This document shows, in pieces, positions 4,445-29,900 of a DNA stretch of 30,346 nt (the first letter of the stretch is position 1; each line of letters starts with the position of its first letter). Source of the stretch: a virus. A program made the position numbers and the translations under genes. The DNA lies in the IMG/VR virus record IMGVR_UViG_3300049595_000077, positions 1 to 30,346 of that record; one strand, given 5' to 3'. The notes below the pieces were generated by a model that had not been told where the DNA came from, ran no database searches, and worked only from the letters and a program-made list of their open reading frames with translations.

Positions 4445-4633
4445 ATGGCATTTAGAAAATCAGCCGACGGTATTGCTAAAAAAGGTAAAACCGAAGGTAA
4501 AAATTTAGGTGATAGCGGCCCTACTGCTGGCATGATGCACGGCGGTAAAGGCAAAGGTAAGGGTAAAACCAATGCCGATATGAAGACTATGGGTCGTAAC
4601 TTGGCAAAAATTGCTAATCAGAAACGAGGCTAA
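4445..4633 (+). CDS. Small Gly/Lys-rich protein with DGIAKKGKTEG motif
   Basis: 62 residues, starting at ATG 4445 with a good Shine-Dalgarno (aaggag) about six bases upstream. It begins MAFRKSADGIAKKGKTEGKN, carrying near its N-terminus the same signature found near the C-termini of the proteins at 545 and 1013. The centre is GGKGKGKGKTN and the end is a basic helix (MKTMGRNLAKIANQKRG). Position between connector genes and high basic charge suggest a minor virion component or DNA-associated peptide. No family is recognised. Confidence 0.83.
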   Translation: MAFRKSADGIAKKGKTEGKNLGDSGPTAGMMHGGKGKGKGKTNADMKTMGRNLAKIANQKRG

Positions 4634-4635
4634 TC

Positions 4636-4899
4636 ATGGCTACATACAGCAAAAAATTGATGGGTAAAGAAGTTGGCGATGCCAAAGTCTATGCTAAACC
4701 ACACACAATGTCTGGCAAAGCTGTCAGTGCTTCTACTAACCCCGGCTCTGGCCCTGACCACAGTGATGCAAATACAGTCAATATGTCTGTAGGCAACATC
4801 TCTCGCCGTCCACAGCCAGCCGCTAAAACTTCGGGTATCAAAATGCGTGGCGCAGGTGCAGCGACTAAAGGTGTAATGTCAAGAGGCCCAATGGCATGA
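4636..4899 (+). CDS. Small basic phage protein ending RGAGAATKGVMSRGPMA
   Basis: 87 residues starting three bases after the previous stop. It has a Lys-rich N-terminus (MATYSKKLMGKEVGDAKVYA), a Ser/Asn/Gly-rich middle and a C-terminal KMRGAGAATKGVMSRGPMA, a motif I recall as recurring in environmental phage contigs beside adaptor genes. The ATGA overlap with the SU10-type adaptor gene (4896) suggests coupled translation and perhaps a shared assembly step. No enzymatic or membrane motif is visible. Function unknown. Confidence 0.83.
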   Translation: MATYSKKLMGKEVGDAKVYAKPHTMSGKAVSASTNPGSGPDHSDANTVNMSVGNISRRPQPAAKTSGIKMRGAGAATKGVMSRGPMA

Positions 4900-12409: not shown

Positions 12410-14296
12410 ATGCCTTTAAAAAAACTATTACTGAAGCCGGGTGTAAACAAAGAAAACACCAGATATACCAATGAGAACGGTTGGTATGTATCCGATAAGA
12501 TGCGGTTTCGGCAAGGTACGCCTGAGAAAATTGGCGGTTGGGTACGTATTTCTGGTGCTATATTCCAAGGCGTTTGTCGTTCTTTGTGGAACTGGATTAC
12601 CCTCGGTGGGTTAAACCTTGTAGGTGTTGGAACTAATTTAAAGTTTTACATTGAACAAGGTGGTATTTATAACGACATCACCCCTATTCGCGCAACCAGC
12701 ACAATTAACACTAATCCTTTTGTAGCTACAAATGGGTCGGCAGTTATCACTGTTACAGATACAGGTCACGGTGGCATAACGGGCGATTTTGTTACTTTCA
12801 GCGGTGCTGTTGGGCTTGGCGGCAATATCACGGCTGATGTATTAAATGCTGAATATCAAATTACTTTTGTTAGCGTTAACTCGTACACGATTACAGTTAC
12901 AGCTACGGCAAATGCCACAGATGTTTCAGGATCTCCCGGTGGTGGAGCTTCGGTGGCGGCGGCGTATCAAATTAATACCGGCCCAGCTATTGCAGTTCCT
13001 TTGGTTGGTTGGGGTGCTGGCTTTTGGGGTTCTGGTGTTTGGGGTACTGGCGGAACATCTATAAGTACCATTCGCCTATGGAGTCAAAGTAACTTTGGAG
13101 AAGACTTAATCTTCAACCCCCGTGGGGGTGCTTTGTATTATTGGGATGCAGGAACTGGTGTAACGTCACGGGGTGTGTTGGTATCTAGCATTATGGGAGC
13201 AGACGCAGATACACCTTCTGTGGTTTTGTCTGTATTTGTGTCTGACGCAAGCCGTTTTGTGTTTGCGTTTGGTTGCGATGACTACAGTTCATCTACGCTA
13301 AACCCCATGTTAATTCGCTGGTCTGACCAAGAGAGCATTCTTGTTTGGACCCCTGCCATCACAAACCAAGCGGGTAGCTTACAGTTGTCGCACGGTTCTG
13401 AGATTGTCACCGCCATCCAAGCTCGTCAAGAGATTGTGGTGTTTACAGATTCAGCCATATATTCACTTCAATACGTTGGGCCACCCGTGGTTTGGTCTTC
13501 TCAACTACTTGGCGATAACGTTTCAATTATTGGCCCTAACGCAGTATGTTTGGCCTCTGGCGTAGTGTATTGGATGGGCGTAGACAAATTCTACAAATAC
13601 GATGGCCGTGTGCAGACTTTGCGTTGTGACCTTAAGCAATATATTTTCCAAGACATTAATACTGCTCAAGCCGCACAGGTGTTTGCGGGGACAAACGAAG
13701 GTTTTAACGAAGCTTGGTGGTTCTACTGCTCTGCCAATAGCAATGAGATTGACCTTTATGTAACGTATAACTACTTGGAAGATGTATGGGCATACGGCAC
13801 ATTAGGCCGTACAGCTTGGTTGGATTCTGGTTTGCGTGATTTTCCGTTAGCGGCAACTTATTCCTATAACCTTGTTAACCATGAGCAAGGTAACGATGAC
13901 AATCAAACAGGAACTCCTGCGGCTATCAATGCTGTTATTGGTTCTGCTGAGTTTGACATTGATGACGGCGATCACTTTGGGTTTGTCTGGAGAATGCTTC
14001 CAGACATTACATTCCGTGGATCAAATGCCGCTTCGCCACAAGTCACAATGACGCTAATTCCTATGCAAAACTCAGGTTCTGGGTATAACGATCCTATTTC
14101 TTTAGGTGGTAATTCTACGGCCACTGTAATCCGAACATCTACTTCCGTGATTGAACAGTTTACCGGTCAAGTCTATGTTAGGGTGCGAGGCCGTCAGATG
14201 ATTATTCAAGTTGAATCTAACCAGCTTGGGTGCGCTTGGCAGTTGGGTTCACCCCGTATCGACATCAAACAAGACGGCAGAAGGGGTAACTCATGA
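12410..14296 (+). CDS. Tail nozzle / packaged-DNA stabilisation protein, P22 gp10-like
   Basis: 628 residues. N-terminal MPLKKLLLKPGVNKENTRYT and WYVSDKMRFRQGTPEKIGGW, then VCRSLWNWITL and LVGVGTNLKFYIEQGG, are marks I associate with the P22 gp10-type stabilisation or podovirus nozzle proteins, which form the lower tail tube and gate DNA exit. A Thr/Val/Gly beta insertion occupies about residues 97-190 and is followed by a Trp/Gly module (W201, W206, W211). The rest contains beta-propeller-like repeats (FTDSAIYSLQYVG; GVVYWMGVDKFYKYDG). The gene follows the lysozyme by eight bases, so lysis genes are embedded among structural ones. Confidence 0.88.
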   Translation: MPLKKLLLKPGVNKENTRYTNENGWYVSDKMRFRQGTPEKIGGWVRISGAIFQGVCRSLWNWITLGGLNLVGVGTNLKFYIEQGGIYNDITPIRATSTINTNPFVATNGSAVITVTDTGHGGITGDFVTFSGAVGLGGNITADVLNAEYQITFVSVNSYTITVTATANATDVSGSPGGGASVAAAYQINTGPAIAVPLVGWGAGFWGSGVWGTGGTSISTIRLWSQSNFGEDLIFNPRGGALYYWDAGTGVTSRGVLVSSIMGADADTPSVVLSVFVSDASRFVFAFGCDDYSSSTLNPMLIRWSDQESILVWTPAITNQAGSLQLSHGSEIVTAIQARQEIVVFTDSAIYSLQYVGPPVVWSSQLLGDNVSIIGPNAVCLASGVVYWMGVDKFYKYDGRVQTLRCDLKQYIFQDINTAQAAQVFAGTNEGFNEAWWFYCSANSNEIDLYVTYNYLEDVWAYGTLGRTAWLDSGLRDFPLAATYSYNLVNHEQGNDDNQTGTPAAINAVIGSAEFDIDDGDHFGFVWRMLPDITFRGSNAASPQVTMTLIPMQNSGSGYNDPISLGGNSTATVIRTSTSVIEQFTGQVYVRVRGRQMIIQVESNQLGCAWQLGSPRIDIKQDGRRGNS

Positions 14297-14562
14297 GTTT
14301 TATGCAAGAATCTCCGCCGCGTTTACCGGCTCCACCGCCAGAATATGAAGCAGCCTATATGGGTCAGATGTTGAACGTGTTGAATTTGTTCTTTCAACGT
14401 TTAAACGCTATTCAACCAATCAACATTGCGCGGTTAAACATTAACTTAACAACGCTTCCAACAGAAGCAGATTTACCCAACTTAAGATTGGGTGATGTCT
14501 ATCGAGACACACAAGACGGTGTTCAAGATACCAGCCAGATGCTGCGAATAAAAACATCTTAA
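14293..14562 (+). CDS. Small virion-associated protein after the nozzle gene
   Basis: 89 residues, overlapping the nozzle gene by four bases. A Pro-rich start (PPRLPAPPPEYEAAYMGQML) leads to a helix (NVLNLFFQRLNAIQPINIAR) and then LTTLPTEADLPNLRLGDVYR with a polar end. I recall this LPTEADLxxLRxGDVYRD pattern from small proteins in environmental podophages, where the role is unknown. The Pro-rich segment and coupled start suggest assembly on, or stabilisation of, the nozzle. It contains no membrane or enzyme motif. Confidence 0.83.
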   Translation: MSFMQESPPRLPAPPPEYEAAYMGQMLNVLNLFFQRLNAIQPINIARLNINLTTLPTEADLPNLRLGDVYRDTQDGVQDTSQMLRIKTS

Positions 14563-14571
14563 TAAGTTTAT

Positions 14572-17500
14572 ATGGCATTACCAACAAATTTTTCTAATGC
14601 TTATGAAGACGTGTATGACGTTTTTGGTGGGCGGGATGCTACCAACGACTTAGTTATGCAATTTAAAGGTATGGGGTTATCTGATAGTGATATTGTTGGC
14701 ATCTTTGCCCCGTATCGACCAGCCACCGTTCAAGCCCCCGCCGCTCAACCTCCCGCCGCTCAACCTCCCGCCGCTCAACCTCCCGCCGCTCAACCTCCCG
14801 CCGCTCAACCTCCCGCCGCTGTTGAAACTCCCGCCGTTCAAACTCCCGCCGCTGTTGAAATTCCCGCCGCAAAAACTACTGACATAGTAGACGACTACAT
14901 TGCGTCTATTCCTGAATCTACTATGACGGTAGAAGATTTGTACACAACCATTCTTGGCCGTCCATCAGATGCAGGTGGTAAGGCATTCTGGGAAAACGCA
15001 TTTGGGCCTACTGTAGATGAGTCGGAAAAAGCTGACTTTTTGCAAGCAGCTAAAGCAGAACTCGCCACTAAAACTAAAGAAGAACAAACAGCGTTGGCTC
15101 CTAATCTTGTAGGTACAACACAAACAACTGCGGACACAACCCAAGTTGCAGCAGTTGAGCCTGAAATAGTTTTAACTCCTGAACAAATAAAAGAAATAGA
15201 AGAAGGATTAAAAGATATAGATTTTCTTGGACTTAAGCCAGCGAACCAAGGTTTGGGTGGCCCGCTTTTTACAATTGCTCCACCAGAAGTGCAAAATGCG
15301 GTTGATTTAAAGAACGGTACATATCTAACTACTACTGGCACAATCGTTAATGCGTCAGGTAACGTGCTTGCGGATACCGGGTCTGCTGCCACTACCACAT
15401 TGACCCAACAGATTCTTGGGCAAGGACTAACCGACAAATGGCAGGGTCAAGGGCATGGATCAGCTCAAGCTAATGCTGCTGACATGGCTAAGATTTTGAC
15501 CGGTATTGGCATTACAGACATTAAACAGTTTGGTGAGGTTCCTCTTTTAGCGCCCGTTGAAGAAATTGGTAAAACGTATAACGGAAACCAAGTTGTCAAA
15601 ATTGACCTTGGCGATGGCGAAATTAGAAATGCGGTATATCAAAGCACTGGTCAATTTGACAGTGATGGCAACGGAATCGGTCAATACGTGCCAATACCTA
15701 AAGACGCAAAAATTGAAACGCTTTACGGGGTATCTAATGGTGAAAGCTACGATGCCGTTGACACATCAAAAGTAAAAATAGTAGACGGCAAACCTGTAGT
15801 TGATACAGGGCAAAAAACATTTGGTAACAAAGAAACAGGCCAAGCTGTCCCTAATACATACAGTGAACGTCAAACAGGAAATGCGTTTGGCGGCACGTTT
15901 GCAGGTAAAGGTAACACAGGTTATCGAGTTCAATTTGCCCCTGATGGAACGCCAATCTTTTACACCACTGGTGCATCGTCTAATGATTTAGCAAATCTTA
16001 TGGCAGACCTTGGCCCAATCGGTCAAATTGGTTTGGCTATTGCTACGGGTGGTTTGTCTATACCTCAACAGATTGCGGCTAATTTAGCTGTAAACGTTTT
16101 AAGCGGTAAAGACCTTGGTGATTCAATTAAAAGCGCTGCAATTAGTTTTGCTGGCGCTCAAATCCCTGGTATGGATTTCATGTCAGATGGCGCTTCGTTT
16201 ATTAAAGACCTTGGGCTGTCAACAGAACTTACAAACACGCTAACTAACTCTTTCCAAAACGCTGCGGTTTCTGCTGGCACTGCGCTGCTTAGTGGCCAAG
16301 ATGTTGGCGAAGCCATGACTAGAGGTTTTGTTACCGGTGGTGTTAACGGTGCTGTTAATTCGCTCTTAGGTAATATTGAAGGGTTTGGCGACCTAACCGC
16401 TAACCAAAAGAAGATGGTTACCAATGCCGTAACAGGCGTGATTTCAGGTAAACCACTGGATCAGATTGTTATCAATACCGCTATCTCTGCGGCCAATTCA
16501 GCTATTGCCGACGCTAAAGGCACAACTGGAAGCCTAGATACAAACACAGAAGATACGCTAACTAAAGCTGGGTTAGTAGACGGCAATGCTGCAACAGATG
16601 CCGACACTATTACCTCACTCCTTGCCAATAAAGATGTTGTTTCGTCTATTGGTAGCGATGCAGTTACAACCCCGGACACATTAAACCTCGGCGGTGCGGA
16701 TGCGCTTGCAAAAACTCTTACAGACGCTAGTACGCTTATTGATACTGAGTTTGGTGACCTAAAAGGCGCACAAGATAGAAACGCCGCAAACGACCAACTG
16801 CGGGATACGATTAAAACTAGCAGTAGCTTTAATGATGCGTATGCACTGGCACGTAAAGAACTTGGCGCAAATAAAACATTTGATTGGTTAAACCCCAAGA
16901 CAGGTAAAGTAGAAAGCTTTAGCACCGCTACAAAAGAAGAGCGTCCAGATCTAAACATTACCGCAGGAGATAAAGCACTTGATGCCTTAAACGCATCTAA
17001 CTTATCTACAGTAACTGACGCATCCAGTACAGTTGCAGCACAGGGTGATACTGCGGCAAGAAGAGCTGCGGCAGACAAACTATCTGGTTTGGATAATCAA
17101 TCTTCTGCGGAAATTAGGCGTTTAACAGCATTAAATAATTCTTTAGTACTAGGTAACGCCCCTAACCAATCGACGGCGGAAACCGCAAGACTCGCTGCGC
17201 AGAACAGAACTGCCAAGTTGTCGGCTGAAGAATCCGACAGTGCTATTACATCGGTATTTAAAAATGTTACCGGCACGGTATCCGGGGCTTTGGGTGAACA
17301 AGCATCTGCTCTTGAAGGGACGCTTAAGGCTAGCGGGGCTATTGGCAAAAACAGCTTACTTGCGGGCATGGCAAATGGTTTGACTTCCTATGGAGCAAAT
17401 AACGTTAGTACCAAAGCGCAAGATCAAGAACAAGGGTTTATAACTGAGATTGCTAAAGCTGGTAATACTGGAAATTTCTGGCCAGATGCTGGCGCTAAAT

Positions 17501-20412
17501 TAAAAGCACTGCCTTCTGCAATTATTAACAACCCAATTGGTTTTGGCTACACCGTAGTTAAAGAAGGTATCCAAGAAGTTATTCCAATTTTAACTGGTGC
17601 AAGTGCGGCTAAGTGGGGCGGCAAACTAATTGGCTTTGCTGCTAACTCTATTGTTAACGGAATCGAAGCTGGTGGCGCAGGGTATAACGGCACGGTAGCT
17701 AAAGCCGAAAAAGCCGGTATGAGTGAAGAAGCCGCGCATGCCGCTGGCCAAAAAGCATTTGTTGCTACCGCTACCGTAGCTGCGGTGCTTGGCCCTATTG
17801 TTGATGCTCCGTTTATTAAGCGGGCTGCGGGTGACGTAGTTCAAAAGACAACTCTTGGTACAGTAGGTAAATCAGCGGCTAAAGAGATGCCGCTAGAATA
17901 TGTAGAAGAAGGCGGGGCTCAAGGTTTTGAAGACTACTTTGCTACCGGCAAGGTTAACGTAAACAACATTTTGACTGGCGCAACTGCGGGTATGGCGGTT
18001 GCTGGACACACTGTAGCCTCTATCCAATTAGGTGAGATGGCGCTTAGCAAAGTAGAACAAGCGGCTTCTTCTGAAATACTTAACTCTGTTGCTGGCGATA
18101 AAGCGGGCGACTTACAGACTCAAGTTGCAAGCACTCTTGCCAATACCAAAAACTTGTCAGACGCCGGTACGCAGATTGCAGCTACGATGCAAGACGCAGG
18201 CATGAACCCTGCCCAAGCTCAGTCGGTTGCTAATACTGTTGTGGCCGAGGCGGTTGTTCATAACCTTACCAAAAATGGCAGCGAAGATACTAAGTTTAGC
18301 GTTGATAATTTAAATGCGCCTGTTGGTTTTGACACAGACGGCAACGCGGTCACAGTTGGTGACGTGCTTGGTTCTAGCGTAACAGGTAAAGGTACGGACT
18401 TTAAAGTCCAACCAGACGTAGTTATTGGAACTGCAAGTGATGGTAAACCCTTAACAATCGGTGATTTGACTGGGTTGCAGGCTAAAGAAACCGCTATTAC
18501 TACAGACGCAAAAGCAACTGCGGCTGCGGTGGATGCCAAATCAGATGTTGTTACTACCTTAGAAACTGCGGGGCTGTCTGAGACTAAGACCGAAGGTGAG
18601 GCTAAAGACGATGTTGTTACTACTTTAGAAACTGCGGGACTAACTGATACTAAAGATGGTACTCTTGAAAGCGTAATTTCAGATACAACCGCAGCAGATG
18701 CTAAAACTAAAGCTGATGCAGATGCCCAAGCCGTTACAGATGCTAAAACTAAAGCTGATGCAGATGCCCAAGCCGTTACAGATGCTAAAACTAAAGCTGA
18801 TGCAGATGCCCAAGCCGTTACAGATGCTAAAACTAAAGCTGATGCAGATGCCCAAGCCGTTGCAGATGCTAAAACTAAAGCCGATGCAGATGCTAAGGCT
18901 GCCGCAGATGCCCAAGCTAAGATAGACGCAGATGTTAAGGCTGCCGCAGACGCTCAAGCTAAGATAGACGCAGATATTAAAGCTGCTGCGGATGCTAAAA
19001 CTAAAGCCGATGCAGATGCCCAAGCTGCTGCGGATGCTAAAACTAAAGCCGATGCAGATGCCCAAGCTGCTGCGGATGCTAAAACTAAAGCCGATGCAGA
19101 TGCCCAAGCTGCTGTGGATGCTAAAACTAAAGCCGATGCAGATGCCCAAGCTGCTACGGATGCTAAAACTAAAGCCGATGCAGATGCCCAAGCTGCTGTG
19201 GATGCTAAAACTAAAGCCGATGCAGATGCTGCTGCTGCAAAAACAAAGGCCGATGCTAAAGCCGCCGCAGATGCCCAAGCTAAAGCCGATGCAGATGCTA
19301 AGGCTGCCGCAAATGCCCAAGCTAAAGCCGATGCAGATGCTAAGGCTGCCGCAGATGCTAAAACTAAAGCCGATGCAGATGCTAAGGCCGCAGCGGACGC
19401 TCAAGCTAAGATAGACGCAGAAGTTAAAGCCGCCGCAGATGCCCAAGCCAAAGCCGATGCAGATGTTAAAGCTGCTACGGATGCCCAAACTAAAGCCGAT
19501 GCAGATACTAAGGCCGCAGCGGACGCCCAAGCTAAGATAGACGCAGAAGTTAAAGCCGCCGCAGATGCCCAAGCTAAGATAGACGCAGAAGTTAAAGCCG
19601 CCGCAGATGCCCAAGCTAAGATAGACGCAGAAGTTAAAGCCGCCGCAGATGCCCAAGCTAAGATAGACGCAGAAGTTAAAACTGAGCCTGACGTAATTTC
19701 TGAGTTAGAGACTGCGGGATTAACTGAAACTAAGCCCGACATAATTTCTGAACTAAAGACTGAGCCTGAAGTTAAGGAAGAAATTAAAACTGAGCCTGAA
19801 GTTAAGGAAGAAGTTAAGACTGAGCCTGAAGTTAAGGAAGAAGTTAAGACTGAGCCTGAAGTAAAGAAAGAAGTTAAGACTGAGCCTGAAGTAAAGACCG
19901 AAACTAAGGTAACTACCGACCTGCCCAATATTAAAGACGCAGAAAAAGTTATTGACGACCTAGATGATGACGTAATTGATAAAGTTACAACTCTGCTAGA
20001 CGACCCAATTATTGATAAAATTATCAGTGACCCAACCAAACAGCCGCCACCTAAGCCGCCTAAGAATCCAAAGGATCCAAGCAAGCAAACGGGTCTAACT
20101 TGGCCTCAAGCTACCGCACTTGCGGGTTCTTTTGGCGTACCTCAATTGGCCAACGTGTTCTACTACGGCAAAGAATTTGGGGCTAAGAAGCAGAAGGTCG
20201 GCAAGTCGGGCAAGTTAGACCAAGAAGAATACAAGGCGCTGAGCGTCACCAAAGCCGGTGCTGAAGGTGAAAAGATTGAGGAAGAAGCACTTGCCCAGAA
20301 GGGCAAAACCGACGAAAATGACATTGAAGAATTGCTTAAAAAGATTGAAGGGTCAAGTGACAACGCTGCGACCCCTGAAGAAATTGAACAAATCGTAAGG
20401 CAAGGAGCCTAA
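14572..20412 (+). CDS. Giant ejection/internal virion protein with DUF4214-like and TolA-like coiled-coil regions
   Basis: 1946 residues. In order: short N-terminal region; PAAQP repeats (residues 54-100); a DUF4214-like segment at about 117-170 (VEDLYTTILGRPSDAGGKAF); a long mixed region with hydrophobic, Gly/Ala-rich stretches at about 478-512 and 984-1155 that could insert in membranes; three DVVTTLETAGL-type motifs; an Ala/Lys/Asp-rich coiled coil of about 328 residues (1376-1703) from 14-residue repeats; KTEPEVKEEV repeats (1729-1778); a Pro/Lys linker; and an acidic helical C-terminus. Size, membrane-prone segments and placement with four similar genes suggest a head-internal protein ejected into the envelope. 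No lytic transglycosylase motif was found. Function is inferred from architecture. Confidence 0.86.
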   Translation: MALPTNFSNAYEDVYDVFGGRDATNDLVMQFKGMGLSDSDIVGIFAPYRPATVQAPAAQPPAAQPPAAQPPAAQPPAAQPPAAVETPAVQTPAAVEIPAAKTTDIVDDYIASIPESTMTVEDLYTTILGRPSDAGGKAFWENAFGPTVDESEKADFLQAAKAELATKTKEEQTALAPNLVGTTQTTADTTQVAAVEPEIVLTPEQIKEIEEGLKDIDFLGLKPANQGLGGPLFTIAPPEVQNAVDLKNGTYLTTTGTIVNASGNVLADTGSAATTTLTQQILGQGLTDKWQGQGHGSAQANAADMAKILTGIGITDIKQFGEVPLLAPVEEIGKTYNGNQVVKIDLGDGEIRNAVYQSTGQFDSDGNGIGQYVPIPKDAKIETLYGVSNGESYDAVDTSKVKIVDGKPVVDTGQKTFGNKETGQAVPNTYSERQTGNAFGGTFAGKGNTGYRVQFAPDGTPIFYTTGASSNDLANLMADLGPIGQIGLAIATGGLSIPQQIAANLAVNVLSGKDLGDSIKSAAISFAGAQIPGMDFMSDGASFIKDLGLSTELTNTLTNSFQNAAVSAGTALLSGQDVGEAMTRGFVTGGVNGAVNSLLGNIEGFGDLTANQKKMVTNAVTGVISGKPLDQIVINTAISAANSAIADAKGTTGSLDTNTEDTLTKAGLVDGNAATDADTITSLLANKDVVSSIGSDAVTTPDTLNLGGADALAKTLTDASTLIDTEFGDLKGAQDRNAANDQLRDTIKTSSSFNDAYALARKELGANKTFDWLNPKTGKVESFSTATKEERPDLNITAGDKALDALNASNLSTVTDASSTVAAQGDTAARRAAADKLSGLDNQSSAEIRRLTALNNSLVLGNAPNQSTAETARLAAQNRTAKLSAEESDSAITSVFKNVTGTVSGALGEQASALEGTLKASGAIGKNSLLAGMANGLTSYGANNVSTKAQDQEQGFITEIAKAGNTGNFWPDAGAKLKALPSAIINNPIGFGYTVVKEGIQEVIPILTGASAAKWGGKLIGFAANSIVNGIEAGGAGYNGTVAKAEKAGMSEEAAHAAGQKAFVATATVAAVLGPIVDAPFIKRAAGDVVQKTTLGTVGKSAAKEMPLEYVEEGGAQGFEDYFATGKVNVNNILTGATAGMAVAGHTVASIQLGEMALSKVEQAASSEILNSVAGDKAGDLQTQVASTLANTKNLSDAGTQIAATMQDAGMNPAQAQSVANTVVAEAVVHNLTKNGSEDTKFSVDNLNAPVGFDTDGNAVTVGDVLGSSVTGKGTDFKVQPDVVIGTASDGKPLTIGDLTGLQAKETAITTDAKATAAAVDAKSDVVTTLETAGLSETKTEGEAKDDVVTTLETAGLTDTKDGTLESVISDTTAADAKTKADADAQAVTDAKTKADADAQAVTDAKTKADADAQAVTDAKTKADADAQAVADAKTKADADAKAAADAQAKIDADVKAAADAQAKIDADIKAAADAKTKADADAQAAADAKTKADADAQAAADAKTKADADAQAAVDAKTKADADAQAATDAKTKADADAQAAVDAKTKADADAAAAKTKADAKAAADAQAKADADAKAAANAQAKADADAKAAADAKTKADADAKAAADAQAKIDAEVKAAADAQAKADADVKAATDAQTKADADTKAAADAQAKIDAEVKAAADAQAKIDAEVKAAADAQAKIDAEVKAAADAQAKIDAEVKTEPDVISELETAGLTETKPDIISELKTEPEVKEEIKTEPEVKEEVKTEPEVKEEVKTEPEVKKEVKTEPEVKTETKVTTDLPNIKDAEKVIDDLDDDVIDKVTTLLDDPIIDKIISDPTKQPPPKPPKNPKDPSKQTGLTWPQATALAGSFGVPQLANVFYYGKEFGAKKQKVGKSGKLDQEEYKALSVTKAGAEGEKIEEEALAQKGKTDENDIEELLKKIEGSSDNAATPEEIEQIVRQGA
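14731..14871 (+). repeat. 15-bp tandem repeats encoding PAAQP
   Basis: Five perfect copies of caacctcccgccgct run from 14746 to 14820, with one diverged copy before and three variant copies after. In-frame, Pro/Ala-rich, and probably a rigid extended linker between the N-terminal segment and the DUF4214-like domain. Confidence 0.9.
18697..19680 (+). repeat. 42-bp tandem array encoding a 14-residue Ala/Lys/Asp coiled-coil unit
   Basis: Twelve units of 42 bases fill 18697-19200, an irregular 69-base stretch follows, then nine more full units and a partial one reach 19680. The first three units are identical over 42 bases and the fourth differs by one base, so expansion looks recent. The encoded unit (DAKTKADADAQAVT and variants such as DAQAKIDAEVKAAA) is two heptads long. 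In-frame throughout. Confidence 0.93.
19756..19905 (+). repeat. 30-bp tandem repeats encoding KTEPEVKEEV
   Basis: Five consecutive in-frame 30-base units with few substitutions. The charged Lys/Glu/Pro peptide should be an extended, flexible segment just after the coiled coil. Confidence 0.9.
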
Positions 20413-20413
20413 T

Positions 20414-21289
20414 ATGGGTGATGAAATTGACTGGAGTGTAGGTGAAACTGGATACGACTCTGGTTCCCAAGGAGAGCTAGATAACTACCTTCAAAGCGGT
20501 GGCTATTATGCAAATGACGCGGTTGCCGACGACGGCACTACCGCCGGTATTAACGCTCAAATTGCAAATCAAAGCAGTCTATTTAGTAGCTCAGATCTCG
20601 CCAAACTGTTTAAAGATTCGCCTCTTTTACAAACCTTGGGTGCTGCTGGCTTAGGCAACTTAGCCGACAAGATTTTTGATGTACAAAAAGGCCCCGGTGG
20701 TTACAGAGGTGGTATCCCCACTTTAACTGCGTATCGTCAACAATTGCCTATCCCAACTTCAATGATGAATGCAGCGGGCACTCCAATGTTAGATGCAAAG
20801 GGTATACCAATCCCCCGCCGACCCGGTTCTGGTGGCGTTACGTATTTCAGCCCAATGCAGTATCTTAAGCCCGGCCAAACCCCTACTCAAACTCCAGCAA
20901 CCCCTGCGTCTACGGGCATTGCAACAGTACCTGCGTCTACGGCTCCCGCTGAATCTGTTGCTGCGCCTACAGAAGACATGTCCTATCAAAACTTTGCTCG
21001 TGGTGGTATTGCCAATTTAGGTGGTTACTCCGATGGTGGCCGCCTGCTCCGTGGCCCCGGTGATGGTGTGTCTGACAGCATCCCAGCTACTATTGGTAAA
21101 AGACAACCCGCTCGGTTAGCCGACGGTGAATTTGTTATTCCAGCACGTATTGTTTCTGAACTGGGCAATGGCTCAACAGAAGCTGGTGCGCGTAAACTAT
21201 ACGCAATGATGGACAGAATTAAGAAGGCTCGTGGCAAGGCCAAAAACATTGCTGCCGATACCAAATCAGACAAGCATTTACCCGCTTAA
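20414..21289 (+). CDS. Virion protein with C-terminal GPGDGVSDSIPA / LADGEFVIPA domain
   Basis: 291 residues with a strong ribosome-binding site (aaggag). The N-terminal half is polar and Gly-rich with GIPTLTAYRQQLPIPTSM; the middle is a Pro/Ala/Thr linker. The C-terminal domain (about residues 189-275) reads NFARGGIANLGGYSDGGRLL, RGPGDGVSDSIPATIG, ARLADGEFVIPARIVSELGN and GSTEAGARKLYAMMDRIKKA. I remember this domain as widespread in structural or injected proteins of environmental podophages, with unknown function. It lies between the two giant genes and may help organise the ejection proteins. No enzymatic residues can be assigned. Confidence 0.85.
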   Translation: MGDEIDWSVGETGYDSGSQGELDNYLQSGGYYANDAVADDGTTAGINAQIANQSSLFSSSDLAKLFKDSPLLQTLGAAGLGNLADKIFDVQKGPGGYRGGIPTLTAYRQQLPIPTSMMNAAGTPMLDAKGIPIPRRPGSGGVTYFSPMQYLKPGQTPTQTPATPASTGIATVPASTAPAESVAAPTEDMSYQNFARGGIANLGGYSDGGRLLRGPGDGVSDSIPATIGKRQPARLADGEFVIPARIVSELGNGSTEAGARKLYAMMDRIKKARGKAKNIAADTKSDKHLPA

Positions 21290-21298
21290 GGAACGACT

Positions 21299-22234
21299 AT
21301 GGCTACCCCCTTAACAAATACAGGAGGCACAGCGGCCTCGGCATTGCCCGCTGCTGGTGGTACTTCAGAACAAACTCTGTCTAGTTACATAGGCCCGTAT
21401 GTAACAAACATGCTTGGCCAAGCTCAAGCTATTGCCAACTCACCTTATCAAACCTATCAAGGCCCAATGACGGCTGGTGAGTCTGGCCTGCAAAGCAACG
21501 TGTTTAAAGGTTTGGGTAATCTCGCGTTTCCTACTCAATTAGGTCAAAGCTTTAGTTCTACTAGCGCATATCAACCGCCAACTATGGGTACTAATGCTTA
21601 TACCCCCGGCGCTATTGGTACAGGTACAGGTGCGGGTGCAGGTATTGCTGGATTAAACACTGGAACTACTGGCGCAACAGGTGCTGGTACTCCGGGTATT
21701 GCTTCTCAGTACATGAACCCGTACTTGCAGTCCGTGCTTAACCCACAGTTGGAAGAACTACGCAGGCAGTCACAGATTAATATGCAGCCCGGCTTAGCTA
21801 AGATGACTCAAGCTGGTGGTTATGGCGGCGGTCGTCAAGCCATTATGGAATCTGAAGCTAACCGCAATTTGTTGCAAGAGCAGAACAAAGCAATCGGCCA
21901 AGGGTACGCAAGTGCGTACGACAAGGGTATGGGTCAATTTAATACTGAGATGGGTCAAGCTAAAGATCTTACCAATATGATGGCCAATGCGGGTCAAGCA
22001 CAACGTGGTATTGAGCAAGAAGGTATCACTGCCGACTACAATGAGTTCTTAGCTCAGCGCGACTACCCAATGAAGCAAACACAATACTTGCAGTCTATGT
22101 TGCAAGGTCTGCCTATCTCTACTGTAACTAATAGCCCATTAGGTAAATCCGGTATGGGTCAGCTAGCCGAGATTACTGGTAGTTTGCCTAGCGTTGAGCA
22201 GACGCTTAAAGATCTTGGTTTGATTCCTAAATAA
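21299..22234 (+). CDS. Probable internal/ejection virion protein
   Basis: 311 residues, with a ribosome-binding site (taagga) before ATG 21299. After a Thr/Gly/Ala-rich N-terminus, residues 137-190 read SQYMNPYLQSVLNPQLEELR, RQSQINMQPGLAKMTQAG and GGRQAIMESEANRN, followed by helical sequence with YASAYDKGMGQFNTEM and a QRGIEQEGITADYNEFLAQR stretch. I recall this MNPYLQ...LNPQ...GGxRQAI pattern from uncharacterised phage virion proteins. The long helices and glycine hinges would fit an internal core protein comparable in role to podovirus core proteins; homology to any characterised one is not claimed. Confidence 0.85.
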   Translation: MATPLTNTGGTAASALPAAGGTSEQTLSSYIGPYVTNMLGQAQAIANSPYQTYQGPMTAGESGLQSNVFKGLGNLAFPTQLGQSFSSTSAYQPPTMGTNAYTPGAIGTGTGAGAGIAGLNTGTTGATGAGTPGIASQYMNPYLQSVLNPQLEELRRQSQINMQPGLAKMTQAGGYGGGRQAIMESEANRNLLQEQNKAIGQGYASAYDKGMGQFNTEMGQAKDLTNMMANAGQAQRGIEQEGITADYNEFLAQRDYPMKQTQYLQSMLQGLPISTVTNSPLGKSGMGQLAEITGSLPSVEQTLKDLGLIPK

Positions 22235-22245
22235 AAGGTGGCAGC

Positions 22246-23934
22246 ATGAACTTAATGGAAGTACAAAGCAGGCTAAATAAGCTGCCCCCTTTACCCGAGT
22301 CAATCCAGTATTTGACGTCAGCGGCTCAAGGTGGTAACCCCCAAGTGCCTCCGTTTATGGCGCTTGCTCGTATTAGCGAAATCAATAAAGAGATACAGTC
22401 GACGCAACAAGCGCAACCCCCTGCTGAACCTTTAAACGAAAGCCTACCTAAGCAAGCCCTGCAAAGTATGGGTATTGGTGCATTGCAGCAAGGACAACAG
22501 CAACAAGGTATGCAGCAAATGGCTCAGCAAGCTGGAGCCGCGCAACGAGCAGTGCCTCCCGGTATTCCTCAACCAGTGCGTCAACAACAGCCTCAACCAC
22601 AACAGCCAATGCCCCAACAAGCACCTCAAGGTGCGCAACCCGTTCGTATGGCGGCGGGTGGTGGTTTGATGGGTGTTCCTGTTGACCCGCGCATGTTTGA
22701 GTACGGCTCAGGCGGCATTGTTGCTTTCAGTGGTGCAGACGGCGATCAAGAAGTTGAAGAAGATGATGAAGATAGCGTGGAGTCAGGCACTCTTAGTAAT
22801 GCCGCTGAGTATGACGCGGCAGCAGAACTTCGCCGACTCCAACCTCAGTTTGAAGCGCGTATGAAAGCGGGTGCACGTCCTGTTCGTTCAACCGCAAAAA
22901 TTGAAGAAGAATTAACTGCAAGAAAAGATTACGGCGTTGATGAAGGCCCAGTTGGTAAAGGCTATTTAGAAGGTCTCGCCTCATTAAAAGAAGCTAAATT
23001 AGCGGATCGCGCGCAACGACAAGCAAACCTCGATAAAAGCAAAGAATTTATAACGCCTAGAGCTCTGCTTGATTACAGCGATGCAACTCGTGGTCAAACA
23101 GGTATGGGTGGAATTGGTGCATTAGCTCGCAGCCGCATGAACGCTACTGAAAAATTCATGGGCGAAGAAACTAACTTGCGCCAAGAAGGTATTAAAGTAG
23201 ATGAGCTTCTTAACGAAGCGCAGTACAAAGTTCAAGCTTTGCGTCAAGCTCAGAAAAGTGGTGACATTAAAGCAGAACAAAAACTTGATTCTGATTTGGC
23301 TAAGATTGCTAAAGACTTGGACGTGGCTAAGAGCAACCTTGTTGGTAAAGCTCTTTCCGGTAACCTTGGTGTTATTAAGAGCCAAATTATGGCCGACGCT
23401 CAAATTCAATCTGCAAAAGAAAGAGCCAAAAATAAAGGCGCTGGTGGTGCAAAGAAACCCACTGACTTGGGTACATCTTACGAGATTGAATTAGCTGCTT
23501 TGATTGCTGAAGGCGAACCTGACGACGCAAATACACGCAAGCGGGCTATGAATATAGCTCAAGATCGTTTAAGCAAATCAGCTAGTACAAATCGTGTAGA
23601 AGTTAGCAAAGTTGAAAAAGCCAATCAAGAATTCCTTGAAAGATACTACACCCCAGAATATTCAGACCTGCGCAAGATGCGCAAAAAGAACCCAACTGAA
23701 TATGCGGCGGGTATTGCTAAACTTAAAAACCAAATTAAAAATGAGTTTGGAATAGCGCCAACTGTAATGTCTGGAGGTAATGCGCCAGCCCCTGCCGACT
23801 CTCCAGCCCCTGCTGCCGCTCCAGCCGTTTCAAGCACGCCGCCTGTAAGTAAGTTAAAAGAAGGTGTTGCAACAAAGTTTGGAAACGGGCAAACTTGGAC
23901 TCTTAAGAACGGTCAACCAGTACAAGTGAAATAA
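22246..23934 (+). CDS. Gln-rich, helical virion/ejection protein
   Basis: 562 residues with an aggtgg ribosome-binding site. Residues 1-50 contain NKLPPLPESIQYLTSAAQGG; residues 55-130 are Gln/Pro-rich; residues 134-162 carry RMAAGGGLMG and GSGGIVAFSGAD, glycine motifs related to those in other proteins here; residues 168-180 are strongly acidic (EVEEDDEDSVES). The rest is helical and charged, with NTRKRAMNIAQDRLSKSAST, and the end (GVATKFGNGQTWTLKNGQPV) is a compact beta-type tail that I recall from other phage core proteins. It is probably part of the internal ejection set; there is no catalytic motif. Confidence 0.85.
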   Translation: MNLMEVQSRLNKLPPLPESIQYLTSAAQGGNPQVPPFMALARISEINKEIQSTQQAQPPAEPLNESLPKQALQSMGIGALQQGQQQQGMQQMAQQAGAAQRAVPPGIPQPVRQQQPQPQQPMPQQAPQGAQPVRMAAGGGLMGVPVDPRMFEYGSGGIVAFSGADGDQEVEEDDEDSVESGTLSNAAEYDAAAELRRLQPQFEARMKAGARPVRSTAKIEEELTARKDYGVDEGPVGKGYLEGLASLKEAKLADRAQRQANLDKSKEFITPRALLDYSDATRGQTGMGGIGALARSRMNATEKFMGEETNLRQEGIKVDELLNEAQYKVQALRQAQKSGDIKAEQKLDSDLAKIAKDLDVAKSNLVGKALSGNLGVIKSQIMADAQIQSAKERAKNKGAGGAKKPTDLGTSYEIELAALIAEGEPDDANTRKRAMNIAQDRLSKSASTNRVEVSKVEKANQEFLERYYTPEYSDLRKMRKKNPTEYAAGIAKLKNQIKNEFGIAPTVMSGGNAPAPADSPAPAAAPAVSSTPPVSKLKEGVATKFGNGQTWTLKNGQPVQVK

Positions 23935-23935
23935 T

Positions 23936-26900
23936 ATGGCAAAAGACGAATGGTCGGTTGTTTCCGAAACTCCAGTCGGTGCAGCCGATAGTTCTGGCTG
24001 GGAAGTTGCGTCTGAAACTCCTATTGCCGCTGCCCCTGCCGTTGCCCCTACGCAACAAATGACGCCCCAGCAGATGGAGCGTTTTGTAAAACCTGCGCAA
24101 CCAGTACAGCAAACGCCAGCGGCTCAGCCTTTCTTGCCCCCACCCGTGCCTAAAGCGGAGCCTGACAGAAGTTTTTCTCCTCTTGAAGAAGCTAAAAAAG
24201 GCGCAGTTGGCGCGGCTACTGTTGGCATCCCAAGCTCGGTTGAGCAGTTTAAATTAGCCGGTAGTGCTGAAGTTCTTGGTAACACCATCCAACGCTTAGA
24301 GTTGCTGGACAAGATTGATAAAGGGGAAATTAAATCTCCTAACGAGTTACCTCGTGACCCACAAGCACGTATGTATTTTGCCTCTAACCCAGAGGTGCGT
24401 GGCCGACTGCGTCAAGCAATTAATAATGACCTAACCAAAGATCAAACATTTGTAAACACCTCTCTTGGTTTACTTGAGCAATACAAGCGTGAAGGTAAGA
24501 AATACGAAGGCCGCCAAGAGAAAGTGCTAGAGAGCGAAAGCGCCGCAGACTTTGGTAATTGGCTGTCTAAAAACATTGGCTCGGGCGCTGTCTACGCTAT
24601 ACCTTCTATCATTGCCGCTATTACCGCAAAACAACCGGGTCTGCTAACTGTCGGCACGGGTATGGGTTATACCGAGGCGGTTAACAATCGTCTAGATGCA
24701 CTGGCCAAGGAACTGCAAACCCTACCGCCTGAGCAAAGAGCCGCTCGTGTAGCTCAAAGGCTACAAGAAACTAACGATGTAAACACAGCCATTGCTGTAG
24801 CTTCTGGTGCACTAGATACAGTGCTTGGCCCTGCCGCTTCTATTGCTAAGCAAGGCATTAAGAGCTCAATCCAAGGCATGGGCCGTAGGGGTGCGGCCAA
24901 AGAAGCTATTAAAGAACTGCCTAAACAAGCTGGGCAAGAGTTTGTAGCTGGTAGCGCTCAAGAAGCCGCGCAAATTGCGGGTAAAGTTAATGTTGGCGAG
25001 CGCGATAAGTTTGCCACAATGGAGACCGCCAAAGATGTTTTGGAATCTGGACTCGCCGAAGCCGCTGGTTCTCTTGGCCCAACCGCTGGTATGGGCGCAC
25101 TGCGTGTAGCTGCAACACCAAAAGCTGAAGCACCTGTTACGGAAAAAGTTGAACCTACTTTAGACCCATGGACGGTAGAAGAAGAAACCCCCCTAGCTCC
25201 TGTTAATAAGCGCCAAGCACTCAAAGATGCTTTAGCTAAACGCATGAAGCCTGCGGTAGAAGAACAACCTGCGGCAGAGGTACAACCTGCGCCCCCTACG
25301 GTGGTATCGGAAGCTGCTCCTACTGAAGTAACTCCAGAAGTACAACCTGCGCCCTCCCCAGAGCTTGAAGCACTTGTAGCAAAATACAAGAAGCGGGGCT
25401 ACATGCCCGAAGACGCCGCTACACTAGCGCGTAACGAGATTGAGGAAGCAAATGCGCCTATTGAAGAGGGAGCAAAAGATGTTACAGAACCTATCAGTAA
25501 AGCAGGTGGAGAGAGCCCTGCGCTACCTGCACAATCAGCCGACAACGTTCCCGCCACCACAGGAGTTGGAGAAGCTAAACGAGATGGAGTGGTTCCTGTT
25601 AGAGCGGATGTTGCAAAGCCTGTTGAAAGAGAAAGAGCTAAGCCCGTTGCAGTAACAGACGCAGATATAACGGACACTGTAAAGTATTATGAAAAACGAA
25701 ATGAATTTCTTAAACAGCTTGATGAAGCAAGCGAAGAAAGCTCGGCTCTATTAGACAAACTAATTGATTTAGATAGTGTTCGCGCAGCAGACGTTTTAGA
25801 CGACAATGGCAAACCGTTAGTTCTTGATGAAAACGGTAACTATGATTCAGACAAAAAATACGAAGCTGTAAAAACTTTAGAAGCCAAGCGTAATGAGGCT
25901 TCAGCTAAATTTGATGCTGCTATTCAACAACTTGATGAACTTGATGCCGCTAGAGAAGTAGCAAAGAAAACCCTTGTAGAAACTAAAGGAGCCGACGTTG
26001 GCACTAAGACCCCTAAAACCGTCCAAACAAAAGAAGAAGGACAAAAAGCACCAGCAGCCGGAGCAGTAACCGGCAAGCAACGTGGTCGGCCAAAGGCTGA
26101 CATTACTGAAGAGAAGCGTGCGGAGAAAGAAAAAGCTCGTACCGAAGGCCGTGCTGAGTACATGAAGGGCGAGCGTGCTCTACCTAAACTTCAGACCCAA
26201 CTGGAAGAAGCCGCTACCCCTGTTGACGAGACTAAGTTTGCCGACGACTTAGATTTAACAGTTGCCCAAGACGAGAAGCGTGCGCTTAAGCGAGACACCA
26301 TCAATGCAATGATGGACTTGGAAACTAAGCACCGTGGTACTGCTCTGGGTAAACGGGTCAAAGCCGCACTTGCTGATCGCACAAAGATTTCTCAAAGAGA
26401 CTATGACGATGTGCAGGCTGGGCGCAAGTACAAATCTCAAGAGCGCGTAAACAAAAGCTCTGCAAGTAACGAAGAAGTCGAAGCCGCAGACGAAGGGTTT
26501 AAGAAAGCTAAGAACGCCGCGCAAGCTGTGGGTCAAGTCATTAAGACGGGAACTGGCATGCAAAAGTTCTTGGCCAAGCGCCTTCGTGGACTGGTCAATG
26601 GTGTTAAGTTTGTTGTAGTTGAAGAGACCGACCCCCTACCAGAACAACTGTCCCGCCATCAAGAGGCTTGGGGCAATGACAACTCCCGTGCTCGTGGTGT
26701 GTATTTTGAGAACACAGCTACCGGTGAAAAGATTATCTACGTGCGCGGTTCTAGCGCGGGTGACTTCCAAGGTATCAATAACACCACAGTACTGCATGAG
26801 TTACTGCATGCTGCAACGCAACAAAAACTTGAGCTAGCTCTTCTTGCGGTTCAACGTGGGTTCTCAGGTGACGCTAAGTTAACTCGTGCGTACAACAAAC

Positions 26901-29900
26901 TCCTTGACGTGATGAACAACGCAAAGGATGAGTACAACCGACTGTCTAACTTGGGCGAACTGCCCACGGATATTTACTATCTGAAGACTGTGTCTGGTGT
27001 GTTTAGCAACCCGCACGAGTTTGTTTCTTACGGCATGACCGACCCCTATTTTCAAAAGTTCCTGATGGGCGCTTATGGCTTTGAGGAAGACACAGGTCTG
27101 TTCAACCAATTTGTAGACGCAATCCGTGAACTGCTTGGCATGGGGCTTGACTCCATCAATGCTCTGTCTGACTTAATTCTTGTTACGGATGAAATCTTGA
27201 CGGCTAAGCTGACGCCGACAATGAAGATGATTGTTAAGGCTGACAAAGCCAACGCAGTCCGTGAAGGTCGTGGCGAGAAAGTTTCTGCGTCTAAAGCTAA
27301 AGCTAAGGCCAACGCCAACGCTAAAAAGATTACCGCTGCTGAGAAAAAAATCCTGCGCAGCAAAGAAGCGCAAGATGTAGTCGACGGCATTGACACAATG
27401 GTTAAGCTACGCGACCCGCAGATTTTCTTGGACACTCTTGCGTCTATGTGGTACGGGCTAAACGTAACAAAACTAAAAGCGTTGATGCCTTCTATTCAAA
27501 CCAACATATTGGCTGAGTGGGGCACTAATCTTGGCATTAAACACATGGACAAAACATGGCGTGCAATGGAAGATATGAGTGCTATGCGCATGAAGATGCT
27601 TGGTGGTGCTTCAGATGTAGTAAACAAATGGCTTAATGTACAACCCGGTTTGTACGGCAAACTTATTAAAGGCAAGAAGAATGAACTTGCTGAATTATCT
27701 GCTGTGATGCACTACGCCACGGACAAGAGCATTGACCCTGCTACAAACAAGAAAGACGCTACACTTAACAAGATGTGGGATGGCCTGAGCGATACAGCCA
27801 AAGAAATCTACGTTGATGTGCGCGACTACTATAAATCTAACTTTGACTTGTACCGCTTGTTGCTCAATGCCCGCATAGATGCAATGAAGATCCCCGGTGA
27901 TGCCGCTGACCCTGATACACCCAAGGGCAAGCTAATGGCTGAGATTAAGAAGATGTACGAGACGGCTAAGGGTCTATCTCCATACTTCCCATTGATGCGT
28001 TACGGTGACTACTGGTTGCGTGTTGGCTCTGGCAAAAAGAAAGAGTTCTACATGTTTGAGAGCGTAGCCGACCGTGAATTGTTTATGCGTCAGCGTGTTC
28101 GTGACTTACAAAAAGAAGGTGACACCCGCAGTCTGTCTGAGATGAAGGCCGATGAGGATATTGAAACCGGCAACGACTTAAAAGGTTTGCGCGATAAAAG
28201 TACGACTAACGACACTGCGCCTTTACTAAAACAAATCTTTGAGTTGATTGGTGACGGCATGAGTGAAGTCGATGCCGAGGCGCTTAAGGATCAAATCTAT
28301 CAGTTGTACTTGACTACGATGCCGGAGCAGAGTTTCCGTCGTCAGTTTATCCATCGTAAAGGCACTGCTGGTTTCTCGGGTGACGCACTGCGCAACTTTA
28401 TTACGTCTTCCACCAATATGGCCAACCAACTTTCGCGGTTAAAGTACGGCCCAGTAATGCTTCGTGAAGTTGATGCTGCCAAAGAAAGTCTCAAGGGCAA
28501 CCCTGATAAAGATAAATTGGAGATGCTGGTCAACGAGTTAGGTGAGCGTGTTCAGTTGGATGTTTACCCACCTGCGGTAGATTCTTTTGCGCAAGGTGCG
28601 GCTAACGTTGCTAACAAAACAGCGTTCCTGTACTTTATGACTTCTGTGAAGACTGCTGTTGTTCAGTTTTCTTCGTTGCCTATTTTTGGCGCACCTGTCC
28701 TTATGTCTCGCCACAGTCCCGCCGGTGTAGTTGCTGAGATGGGCAAAATGATGTTGGTCTTCAACGACGTCGGCGTTATTGATAAAGATGGAAAACTCAG
28801 TCAAGTGTCCTTGGCAAACTCCCGTCGCGTTAAGATGAATGAGGAAGAGCAACGGGCTATTGAAGCAATGACAGACCGTGGTGTCAGTGAGATCACGATG
28901 GCCTATGATTTGATGGATCGCCGCAAGACTCCGTCAACTAAATACTCTGGTGCGTGGAAGACTGCAACTAACATGATGGGTGGCTTGTTCCACCACGTTG
29001 AGCGTTTGAACCGTGAAGTCATGTTTATGACCTCGTTCCGTTTGAGCCGTAAGCCCGGGCCAAATCAACTATCTTTTGATGACGCGGTCGAACAAGCGGT
29101 TAAGGATACTTACGATGCTCTTGGTAACTTCTCTGAGCAAAACCGTCCACGCATGATGCGCGGCCCAGCCGGTCGTACGCTATTGCAATTTAAGACTTTC
29201 CCTCTTTTCGTAACTACATACCTAACCCGTAATGGCTATCGTGCTATGGCTGGTATGGATGCGGCGGCTAAGAAAGAAGCGGCTACTCAATTGTTTGGCA
29301 CTTTGTTTATGTCTGGCTTGTTAGCTGGCTACGTTGGTGTCCCGGGTATCAGTGCGGCTATGGGTGCTATCCAAGGCATTATCAATTCAATGCGCGATGA
29401 AGATGATGAAGACCCGTTAGAAGAGCGCGACCTTGAGTTCTGGTTCCGCAGTGTGTTTATTCCTGAGTTCTTTGGTGAAGCTCAGATTGGTGGAAACAAA
29501 ATCAGTGACATCATTGACTCCGGTTTGATTGACACTATCTCGGGCTACAACATGTCTAATAGCTTGTCGATGAATAACATGTGGTTCCCAGACTTAAAAG
29601 AGCAACGCACTCTTGAAGACACAGTGCGGGAATACGCATTGTCGTTGGCAGGGCCGTTTGCTAGTTTGACATTAAATCAAATACCTTCAGCTATCCGGCT
29701 ACTGCAAGAGGGTAAAACCATGCAAGGCTTGGAAAGACTTCTCCCCGCCGCTTTGCGTCAGCCGTTGACTGCGGTTCGGTATAGCGAAGAAGGTGCTACA
29801 ACAAGTACAGGCGCGGTTATTAGAGAGCCTGAAGAGTTTACAAAGGCGCAACTACTTGCTCAAGCAGCCGGTGCACGGACTACAGGTTTGGCCTCTGCGC

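Follow-up and report, generated by a model that had tools for sequence, protein, structure and literature searches.

A TolA-like alanine-rich repeat array as a probable replaceable spacer in a large modular phage protein

Background

Long low-complexity stretches in phage proteins are readily dismissed as noise or over-read as mimicry. The question of how to understand such a stretch is raised by a 30346-base virus record from an uncultured freshwater phage (IMG/VR record IMGVR_UViG_3300049595_000077, the whole of which is the window analyzed here). It contains a large modular open reading frame (ORF) of 1946 residues, hereafter BIG (14572..20412, + strand), which has syntenic homologues in other IMG/VR contigs and carries a long tandem array rich in Ala, Lys and Asp (residues 1376-1703; 18697..19680, +). 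A first-pass annotation had read this array as a TolA-like alanine coiled coil in an ejected protein, which might form a rod or sheath across the periplasm or mimic TolA. The BIG family is a large set of natural replicates, with the tail conserved and the spacer before it exchanged, so that one can ask what the spacer must keep: its sequence, its helicity, its number of residues or its reach. No description of the family or its spacers was found in the literature, represented largely by the openings of abstracts. We report that the array is, on balance, probably a replaceable tether or spacer; the earlier interpretation as a whole is partly supported.

Results and discussion

A spacer precedes the conserved tail in all proteins examined, and its sequence is exchanged

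From the N-terminus, BIG comprises a low-complexity spacer of PPAAQ repeats in what we term the N-slot (residues 43-101; 14698..14874, +), a conserved core 1 (residues 270-695; 15379..16656, +), a less widely conserved core 2 (residues 861-1320; 17152..18531, +; poorly modeled) with a hydrophobic segment at 1064-1082, a second spacer in the C-slot, and a conserved tail of about 109 residues with an ANVFYYGKEFG motif (residues 1838-1946; 20083..20409, +). Low complexity in the C-slot covers residues 1368-1785, and these 418 residues consist mostly of the array but also include a second tandem array of 30-nucleotide (nt) units encoding KTEPEVKEEV (19756..19896, +). The relatives were collected by scans of IMG/VR, which gave 47 loci with the whole protein, 54 with the tail and the best 80 of 114 with core 1, many contigs recurring among them. 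In all, 177 ORFs are matched by the profile of core 1 or of the tail, and the 129 that end in a natural stop represent 64 distinct proteins, 49 of which have a low-complexity stretch within 200 residues of the C-terminus. Every tail-bearing protein with a natural stop has such a stretch, at least 35 residues long and within the same distance (42 of 42 distinct proteins, including BIG of this DNA; 9 are cut at the 5' side), and of the 48 ORFs truncated at a contig end, 16 break off in low complexity. By composition, 31 of the 42 spacers are Pro-rich, 6 are rich in Asp, Thr, Lys and Glu, 4 are Ala-rich and 1 is of another kind; the N-slot spacers of the relatives likewise interchange between Ala-rich and Pro-rich forms.

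Since relatives use many chemically unrelated spacers at the same place, the array looks like a tether and not like a copy of TolA. In the explanation that we modestly favor, the spacer would hold the conserved tail away from the BIG body; the tail would probably dock on another part of the virion, and the body, once ejected, would probably act on the host envelope. The spacer of this lineage would be an Ala-rich helix, predicted to be broken once, and in relatives a Pro-rich or otherwise non-Ala-rich chain. Selection, it is suggested, would then hold the reach in nanometers and not the sequence, residue count or helicity.

Predicted shape of the array

The Ala-rich tandem array is confirmed, and its annotated boundaries coincide exactly, and in frame, with residues 1376-1703. 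It is composed of 146 Ala, 64 Asp, 51 Lys, 20 Thr, 20 Gln, 13 Val, 8 Ile, 5 Glu and 1 Asn, and consists of 23.4 units of 14 residues (42 nt), in agreement with the more than twenty units proposed earlier and far above chance: the identity at lag 14 is 0.844, whereas 2000 shuffles average 0.269 and never exceed 0.334. Tandem Repeats Finder recovers the 42-nt period at 18694-19229 (12.8 copies, score 701) and at 19001-19661 (15.7 copies), and the repeats fall into two blocks that are mutually out of phase, with the slip near residue 1556. The 14-residue unit is thus sound, but not its division into two alike heptads, the identity at lag 7 being 0.078. Together with the weak hydrophobic periodicity near 3.5 residues (peak of 8.65 in the range 3.4-3.8, against a 95% null value of 5.88), this figure does not demonstrate a coiled coil.

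A helix is favored because opposite charges predominate at i,i+4 (83 opposite pairs versus 1 like pair). AlphaFold2, supplied with L004 (one of the contigs bearing a relative) across the array and, for the tail alone, with 26 relatives, predicts two helices, residues 1365-1547 (18664..19212, +) and 1560-1703 (19249..19680, +), with predicted local distance difference test (pLDDT) values, by blocks of ten, mostly of 80-92. The break between them, residues 1548-1559 (19213..19248, +), coincides with the phase slip between the two blocks. The model is of low confidence in the tail and the KTEPEV repeat (block pLDDT 28-49). Both the charge pairs and the pLDDT values speak for a predicted helix over disorder, and a helix in the array is likely, with the proviso that AlphaFold2 may over-predict helix in Ala-rich sequence. 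The arithmetic of the proposed 49 nm helix holds (328 x 0.15 nm), but the model gives about 27 and 22 nm with a break between and not one continuous rod. Two long open frames overlap the array, 18679-19656 (-) and 18992-19414 (+, in another frame); these are probably not genes, since a 42-nt unit free of stops in those frames would leave them open anyway.

A likeness to TolA that is not specific to TolA

The resemblance to TolA in composition is real, but it is not specific. Against the array alone, the TolA model TIGR02794 reaches 36.5 of the 59.45 bits that its cut-off demands and another TolA model 18.4 of 213, whereas four models of staphylococcal SD-repeat adhesins score 69.9-76.2 bits, above both. 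With the whole protein, no TolA model is listed up to an E value of 1. An N-terminal membrane helix of the TolA type was not found, the only hydrophobic 19-mer above threshold in BIG being residues 1064-1082; the first 110 residues contain no His and hence no SxHxLxS motif of TolA; and residues 1704-1946, where the C-terminal domain III would be sought, match no Pfam family up to an E value of 1 by sequence profiles. Having missed the cut-off and shown neither the N-terminal membrane helix nor the TolA C-terminal domain, BIG was rejected as a TolA member. What it does have is a long, low-complexity, Ala-rich and predicted-helical stretch as in TolA domain II; the approximate domain II of Escherichia coli K-12 tolA, used as a yardstick, is also Ala-rich and has 35 opposite and 1 like i,i+4 pairs. 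The likeness is a shared property of composition, not of ancestry.

The idea of an ejected TolA-like helical rod or sheath across the periplasm, or of a TolA mimic, draws on this predicted helix, on the Ala/Lys/Asp composition with its i,i+4 salt bridges, on the weak TIGR02794 score and on ejection-like neighbors (see below); it has to contend with the missed cut-off, the higher-scoring adhesin models, the two TolA features not found at either end of the protein and the break in the predicted helix. We consider it very improbable. Neither the mimic nor the trans-envelope rod is supported, because 38 of the 42 tail-bearing proteins fill the slot with non-Ala-rich, mostly Pro-rich, repeats, and because the spacers of close relatives are unrelated to the array. 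TolA mimicry is therefore unlikely, and TolA-like composition is weak evidence for it.

Turnover of the spacer and the case for neutral slippage

The speed of exchange is apparent from the closest relatives. The protein in contig L008 is 94% identical in core 1 and 90% in core 2, and that of L065/L011 is 77% identical in core 1, 92% in core 2 and 87% in the tail, yet the spacers of both are unrelated to the array (3-mer Jaccard index 0.08). As far as can be judged from sequence, such relatives lack the segment and carry other spacers instead. The array of L022 aligns with the present one at the DNA level (68% over 955 nt), and the two may share ancestry. At the shortest range, an identical gene occurs in five contigs, contig L007 ends within the array, and contigs L004 and L005 have one 42-nt unit fewer among the first four, nearly identical units (18697..18864, +); they are otherwise identical across the gene and 8 kb upstream, with a single base differing downstream in L005. 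Among the first 13 units, 184 of 404 pairwise codon differences are synonymous, and among the last 10 units 178 of 299, compared with expected fractions of 0.24 and 0.23 under random single-base changes. With transitions alone about one third would be synonymous by arithmetic, which leaves a smaller excess that is still there, and the pairwise counts are not independent.

The main rival to a tether under selection is neutral slippage, in which repeats expand or are replaced within a linker that tolerates any hydrophilic sequence and nothing is selected. It accommodates the wholesale turnover between close relatives, the one-unit difference between otherwise identical genes and the near identity of neighboring units; it accounts less readily for the presence of a spacer in all 42 tail-bearing proteins, for the synonymous excess between units, and for a residue number that tracks the predicted rise in two slots but not in control ORFs (see below). 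We regard it as unlikely.

A suggested rule: residue number varies with spacer type, and estimated reach does not

If the spacer is a tether, its length is the property to compare. For the C-slot we took the whole low-complexity stretch as the spacer, which left 34 proteins after 8 of the 42 were dropped because their spacer was cut at the 5' side. The four helical spacers (at the standard entropy setting, 418, 441, 464 and 594 residues) exceed 26-29 of the 30 others, which have a median of 252-298 residues, and the one-sided p value for residue count is 0.0002-0.005 over eight settings. Contour lengths, estimated from textbook rises of 0.15, 0.31 and 0.36 nm per residue, show no difference between helical and other spacers (p 0.41-1.0). 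The N-slot was compared in 61 proteins, with 19 that lack a spacer and 7 of neither class left out. Here 14 helical spacers have a median of 130 residues and 21 Pro-rich ones a median of 56 (p 0.0019; 0.00001 to 0.013 over four settings, among which the class sizes shift), and the median contour lengths are 20 nm and 17 nm, respectively (p 0.65); many of these stretches had already been listed before the N-slot test was conceived. Three N-slot spacers of 30-47 residues (L016, L117 and L119) run counter to a rule of constant reach, being classed as helical by composition, but they are rich in Ser, Thr and Asp and may not be helical. Thus, in two separate slots the Ala-rich, helical spacers exceed the others in residue number by a factor of about 1.5-2.5. 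The control, comprising 334 other ORFs on the same contigs, shows no such excess of Ala-rich over Pro-rich low-complexity stretches (medians 32.5 versus 41 residues; 8 versus 43 stretches; p 0.97).

On the tail tree the helical spacers require 4 changes, at least 2 of them forced by well-supported branches. Three have a non-helical nearest neighbor about half as long, namely L026 with 441 residues beside L033 with 183, L096 with 594 beside L042 with 307, and L010 with 418 beside L068 with 211, the supports of these pairs being 84-90, below the 95 mark of the tool. On the core 1 tree, the N-slot provides 5 independent pairs whose branches are well supported. An average of 2 or 3 of them, according to where the length cut is set, are as expected, almost none is opposite and the rest show no difference.

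Conservation of reach in nanometers, and not of residue count, is suggested by these comparisons, not established. A bolder form of the proposal is that the family keeps the reach of both spacers, at an estimated 20 nm or so in the N-slot and 80-90 nm in the C-slot, despite replacement among Ala-helix, polyproline-type and other chains, with residues roughly doubling when the spacer is helical, in keeping with the smaller rise per residue; it would be a molecular ruler in nanometers, convergent with domain II of TolA and TonB. This we put forward only tentatively, as possible but doubtful.

A number of points weigh against a tether of selected reach. The C-slot length test was post hoc, the long Ala-rich spacers having been noticed beforehand, and its helical class has 4 members. 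The control offers few stretches, most of which are not linkers. The contour lengths rest on textbook rises and spread widely (52-164 nm at standard entropy, 33-238 nm over all settings), and the tree-controlled tests cannot reach 0.05, well-supported branches giving them 2 and 5 independent pairs. Fifteen of the 64 distinct proteins, all of them tail-less, are without a C-terminal spacer, and 19 of 61 N-terminal regions are without any. Faulty assembly might account for the one-unit difference, though two contigs from two data sets agree. As regards the body, BIG matches no Pfam or PHROG family at an E value of 0.001; the model of its cores, with a mean pLDDT of 48.7 (mostly 73-85 for residues 270-430 of core 1), is poor and has no fold match in the PDB at an E value of 0.001. 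Finally, two points bear on the location considered below: the PLxRFG neighbor was detected in 12 of 41 loci only and went undetected in some long ones, and the GDSL, RTX and Cys-rich modules of relatives suit surface and ejected proteins equally.

Were reach what counts, it could be tested by exchange of spacers, and it would provide a length scale for the step that BIG performs during entry.

Gene neighborhood and location in the virion

The BIG gene sits in an ejection cluster downstream of tail genes. The upstream gene, g628 (12410..14296, +; 628 residues), is related to the stabilization or tail protein of named phages, matching 149 phage records of which several are annotated as stabilization protein or putative tail protein; we take it to be of the P22 gp10 type. 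It is followed by the small syntenic ORF g89 (14293..14562, +; 89 residues). Downstream of BIG lie g291 (20414..21289, +; 291 residues), a syntenic ORF; g311 (21299..22234, +; 311 residues), which matches phrog_4287 (DNA ejection protein) with an E value of 9.9e-05; g562 (22246..23934, +; 562 residues), syntenic and with no assigned function; and a PLxRFG/DarB-like protein of 2094 residues (23936..30220, +), which matches a DarB-like PHROG, three unnamed PHROGs and the NCBIfam model PLxRFG (390 bits against a cut-off of 100). The g311 profile also matches proteins of MinM2, DSL-LC04, HTVC023P and CRP-901 as well as the 'internal virion protein D' of ct7L0027. In 41 loci, hand-picked to be mutually unlike and with ends cut at differing points, g628 is present in 35, g89 in 27, g291 in 37, g311 in 37, g562 in 31 and the PLxRFG gene in 12, and the gene order is never violated, with one strand throughout.

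A comparable place in phage DSL-LC04 (OR003939), two ORFs after the stabilization gene, is held by a 759-residue 'tail tape measure protein' (L179:15138-17417, -) that contains a tandem repeat and whose C-terminus is matched by the g291 profile (E value 1.2e-14), the module concerned resembling the C-terminal part of g291. In the part of PMC10611076 consulted, the host of this phage is predicted to be Pseudomonas, and tape measure proteins are among the predicted structural proteins of the Dishui Lake phages. By eye, core 1 proteins in L119:5281-11397, L152:439-6024, L162:5335-11031 and L147:4948-10308 also end in a g291-like module. Such modules at the ends of core 1 proteins and of the DSL-LC04 protein hint that BIG and g291 work together.

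From the neighbors we infer a virion location for BIG, and an ejected protein is plausible on the grounds of gene order. The most likely place would be among proteins packaged and ejected together with the neighbors, a context to which the g311 match, the annotation of the DSL-LC04 protein and a weak match to an LT_GEWL protein in BFVD are all favorable. The main alternative for location is a fiber or tail spike stalk on the virion surface, with the tail bound to the virion, the spacer as the stalk and the body carrying exchangeable modules for the host surface. Certain relatives indeed carry modules of this sort. A GDSL hydrolase domain (PF13472, E value 2.7e-13) occupies residues 227-366 of L018:7665-12074, between the N-slot spacer and core 1, and occurs in 1 of the 21 members of A6; RTX repeats are present in L074 and L044; DUF4214 occurs in 1 of 33 and 2 of 21 members and CBM_14 in 2 of 21; and EGF-like and other Cys-rich models match single members. 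The CBM_14, cEGF and TIL matches in A6 may stem from Cys-rich C-terminal repeats. Pro/Thr-rich linkers, moreover, are common in extracellular proteins. However, a protein ejected into the periplasm could bear the same modules, and the ejection-like downstream neighbors, the tape measure annotation in DSL-LC04 and the one weak LT_GEWL fold match point away from the surface, so that we judge a surface stalk to be quite unlikely. Taken by themselves, the modules would suit a protein that works on the host envelope, be it from the surface of the virion or, once ejected, within the periplasm.

Several observations were made alongside. The C-terminal regions of the tail-less proteins in L031, L139, L124 and L130 have Cys-rich repeats of the CxxGxxxNxxGxCVP type instead of, or beside, low complexity. 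In L104:3849-5375 (MW202710, ctnlZ23) a 508-residue core 1 protein directly follows the gene of a 'head to tail connecting protein' and precedes scaffolding, a different gene position. A DUF4214 domain suspected by eye in BIG itself was not found by Pfam.

Searches for distant relatives

The BFVD fold search, with the poor core model as query, returned three phage proteins at an E value of 0.001 or below, one of them with an LT_GEWL domain (E value 3.4e-4; TM-scores 0.09 and 0.11), a match that is a lead only. VIA-align of the same model gave a best Z of 6.1, on short helical pieces, and the PhiM1 ejectosome chain 8vb2_E (Z 3.8, root-mean-square deviation 4.1 over 76 residues) ranked level with unrelated entries for this poor query. 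In sequence comparison with the PDB, the core profile had a best E value of 0.29 and none at 0.001, and the 12 matches to the array were all to repetitive or biased stretches (Spt20-like, circumsporozoite, eL29 and others). Against the phage collection, residues 1-1373 of BIG yielded one record over 6%, MW202710, and residues 1704-1946, the body of the L077 protein and the N-terminus of the L028 protein yielded no match; a head fiber match to residues 2-49 of the latter (phrog_14753, E value 4.2e-4) was set aside as too short for use. By eye, core 2 and the N-terminus of the PLxRFG neighbor seemed alike, but a profile comparison gave this kinship a probability of 0.6% and it was rejected; the cores and tail compared with g291, g311, g562 and the rest of the 2094-residue protein reached 2.3% at best, some of the alignments being thin. 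The P22 portal model matched none of 8 related contigs, which are fragments. One scan of bacterial genomes gave 358 stretches matching a pattern, with no relative among them.

Comparison with known systems

In its mechanics the phage slot resembles domain II of TolA and TonB, with which no relation was found. Both have a low-complexity spacer of widely ranging length, Ala-rich and helical or Pro-rich, before a conserved C-terminal part; BIG differs in its phage gene context and in having no N-terminal membrane helix, no C-terminal Pfam domain and no TolA model above cut-off. According to the part of PMC12204202 consulted, TolA domain II varies from helical to Pro-rich and TonB domain II is mostly Pro-rich, their median lengths are 192 and 113 residues, respectively, and deletions in TolA domain II are tolerated until it is too short for spanning. 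The repeat number of E. coli tolA is itself variable, ranging from 8 to 16 in 234 isolates, with RecA-dependent contraction (PMC3477136, in part).

With the ejection or pilot proteins of podoviruses (P22 gp7, gp20 and gp16; T7 gp14, gp15 and gp16), BIG shares the gene neighborhood and the size variation and domain swapping that are described for them in the consulted part of PMC8954989; the main text of that review, as far as consulted, does not contain the term 'low complexity'. BIG is distinct from these proteins in that neither a family match in Pfam or PHROG nor a PDB match of its core profile is seen at 0.001. The DSL-LC04 protein is similar to BIG in its gene position, its tandem repeat, a Gly/Ala-rich hydrophobic stretch recognized by eye and its g291-related C-terminal module; it is different in its size, in the nature of its repeat, in having the g291-like part in the same chain and in lying two further ORFs after the stabilization gene, and it is not matched by the core 1 profile. 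The nearest stated principle is conformational buffering in adenovirus E1A linkers, where length and composition change in compensation and tethering is kept (PMC13014269, as given in a citing account). In the present case the change would span helical, Pro-rich and other chains, in phages, as read from sequence only.

Repeats and short motifs are also seen elsewhere in the window. Upstream, among the syntenic genes, an ORF of 346 residues (6738-7778, +) consists in part of repeated ETATGTDAVTA-like units. Rows of small Lys/Gly-rich ORFs at 545-1965 and 4445-4899 (+) include several with MAxGG- or AxGG-like motifs, and these motifs recur in g291 and in other C-termini of relatives.

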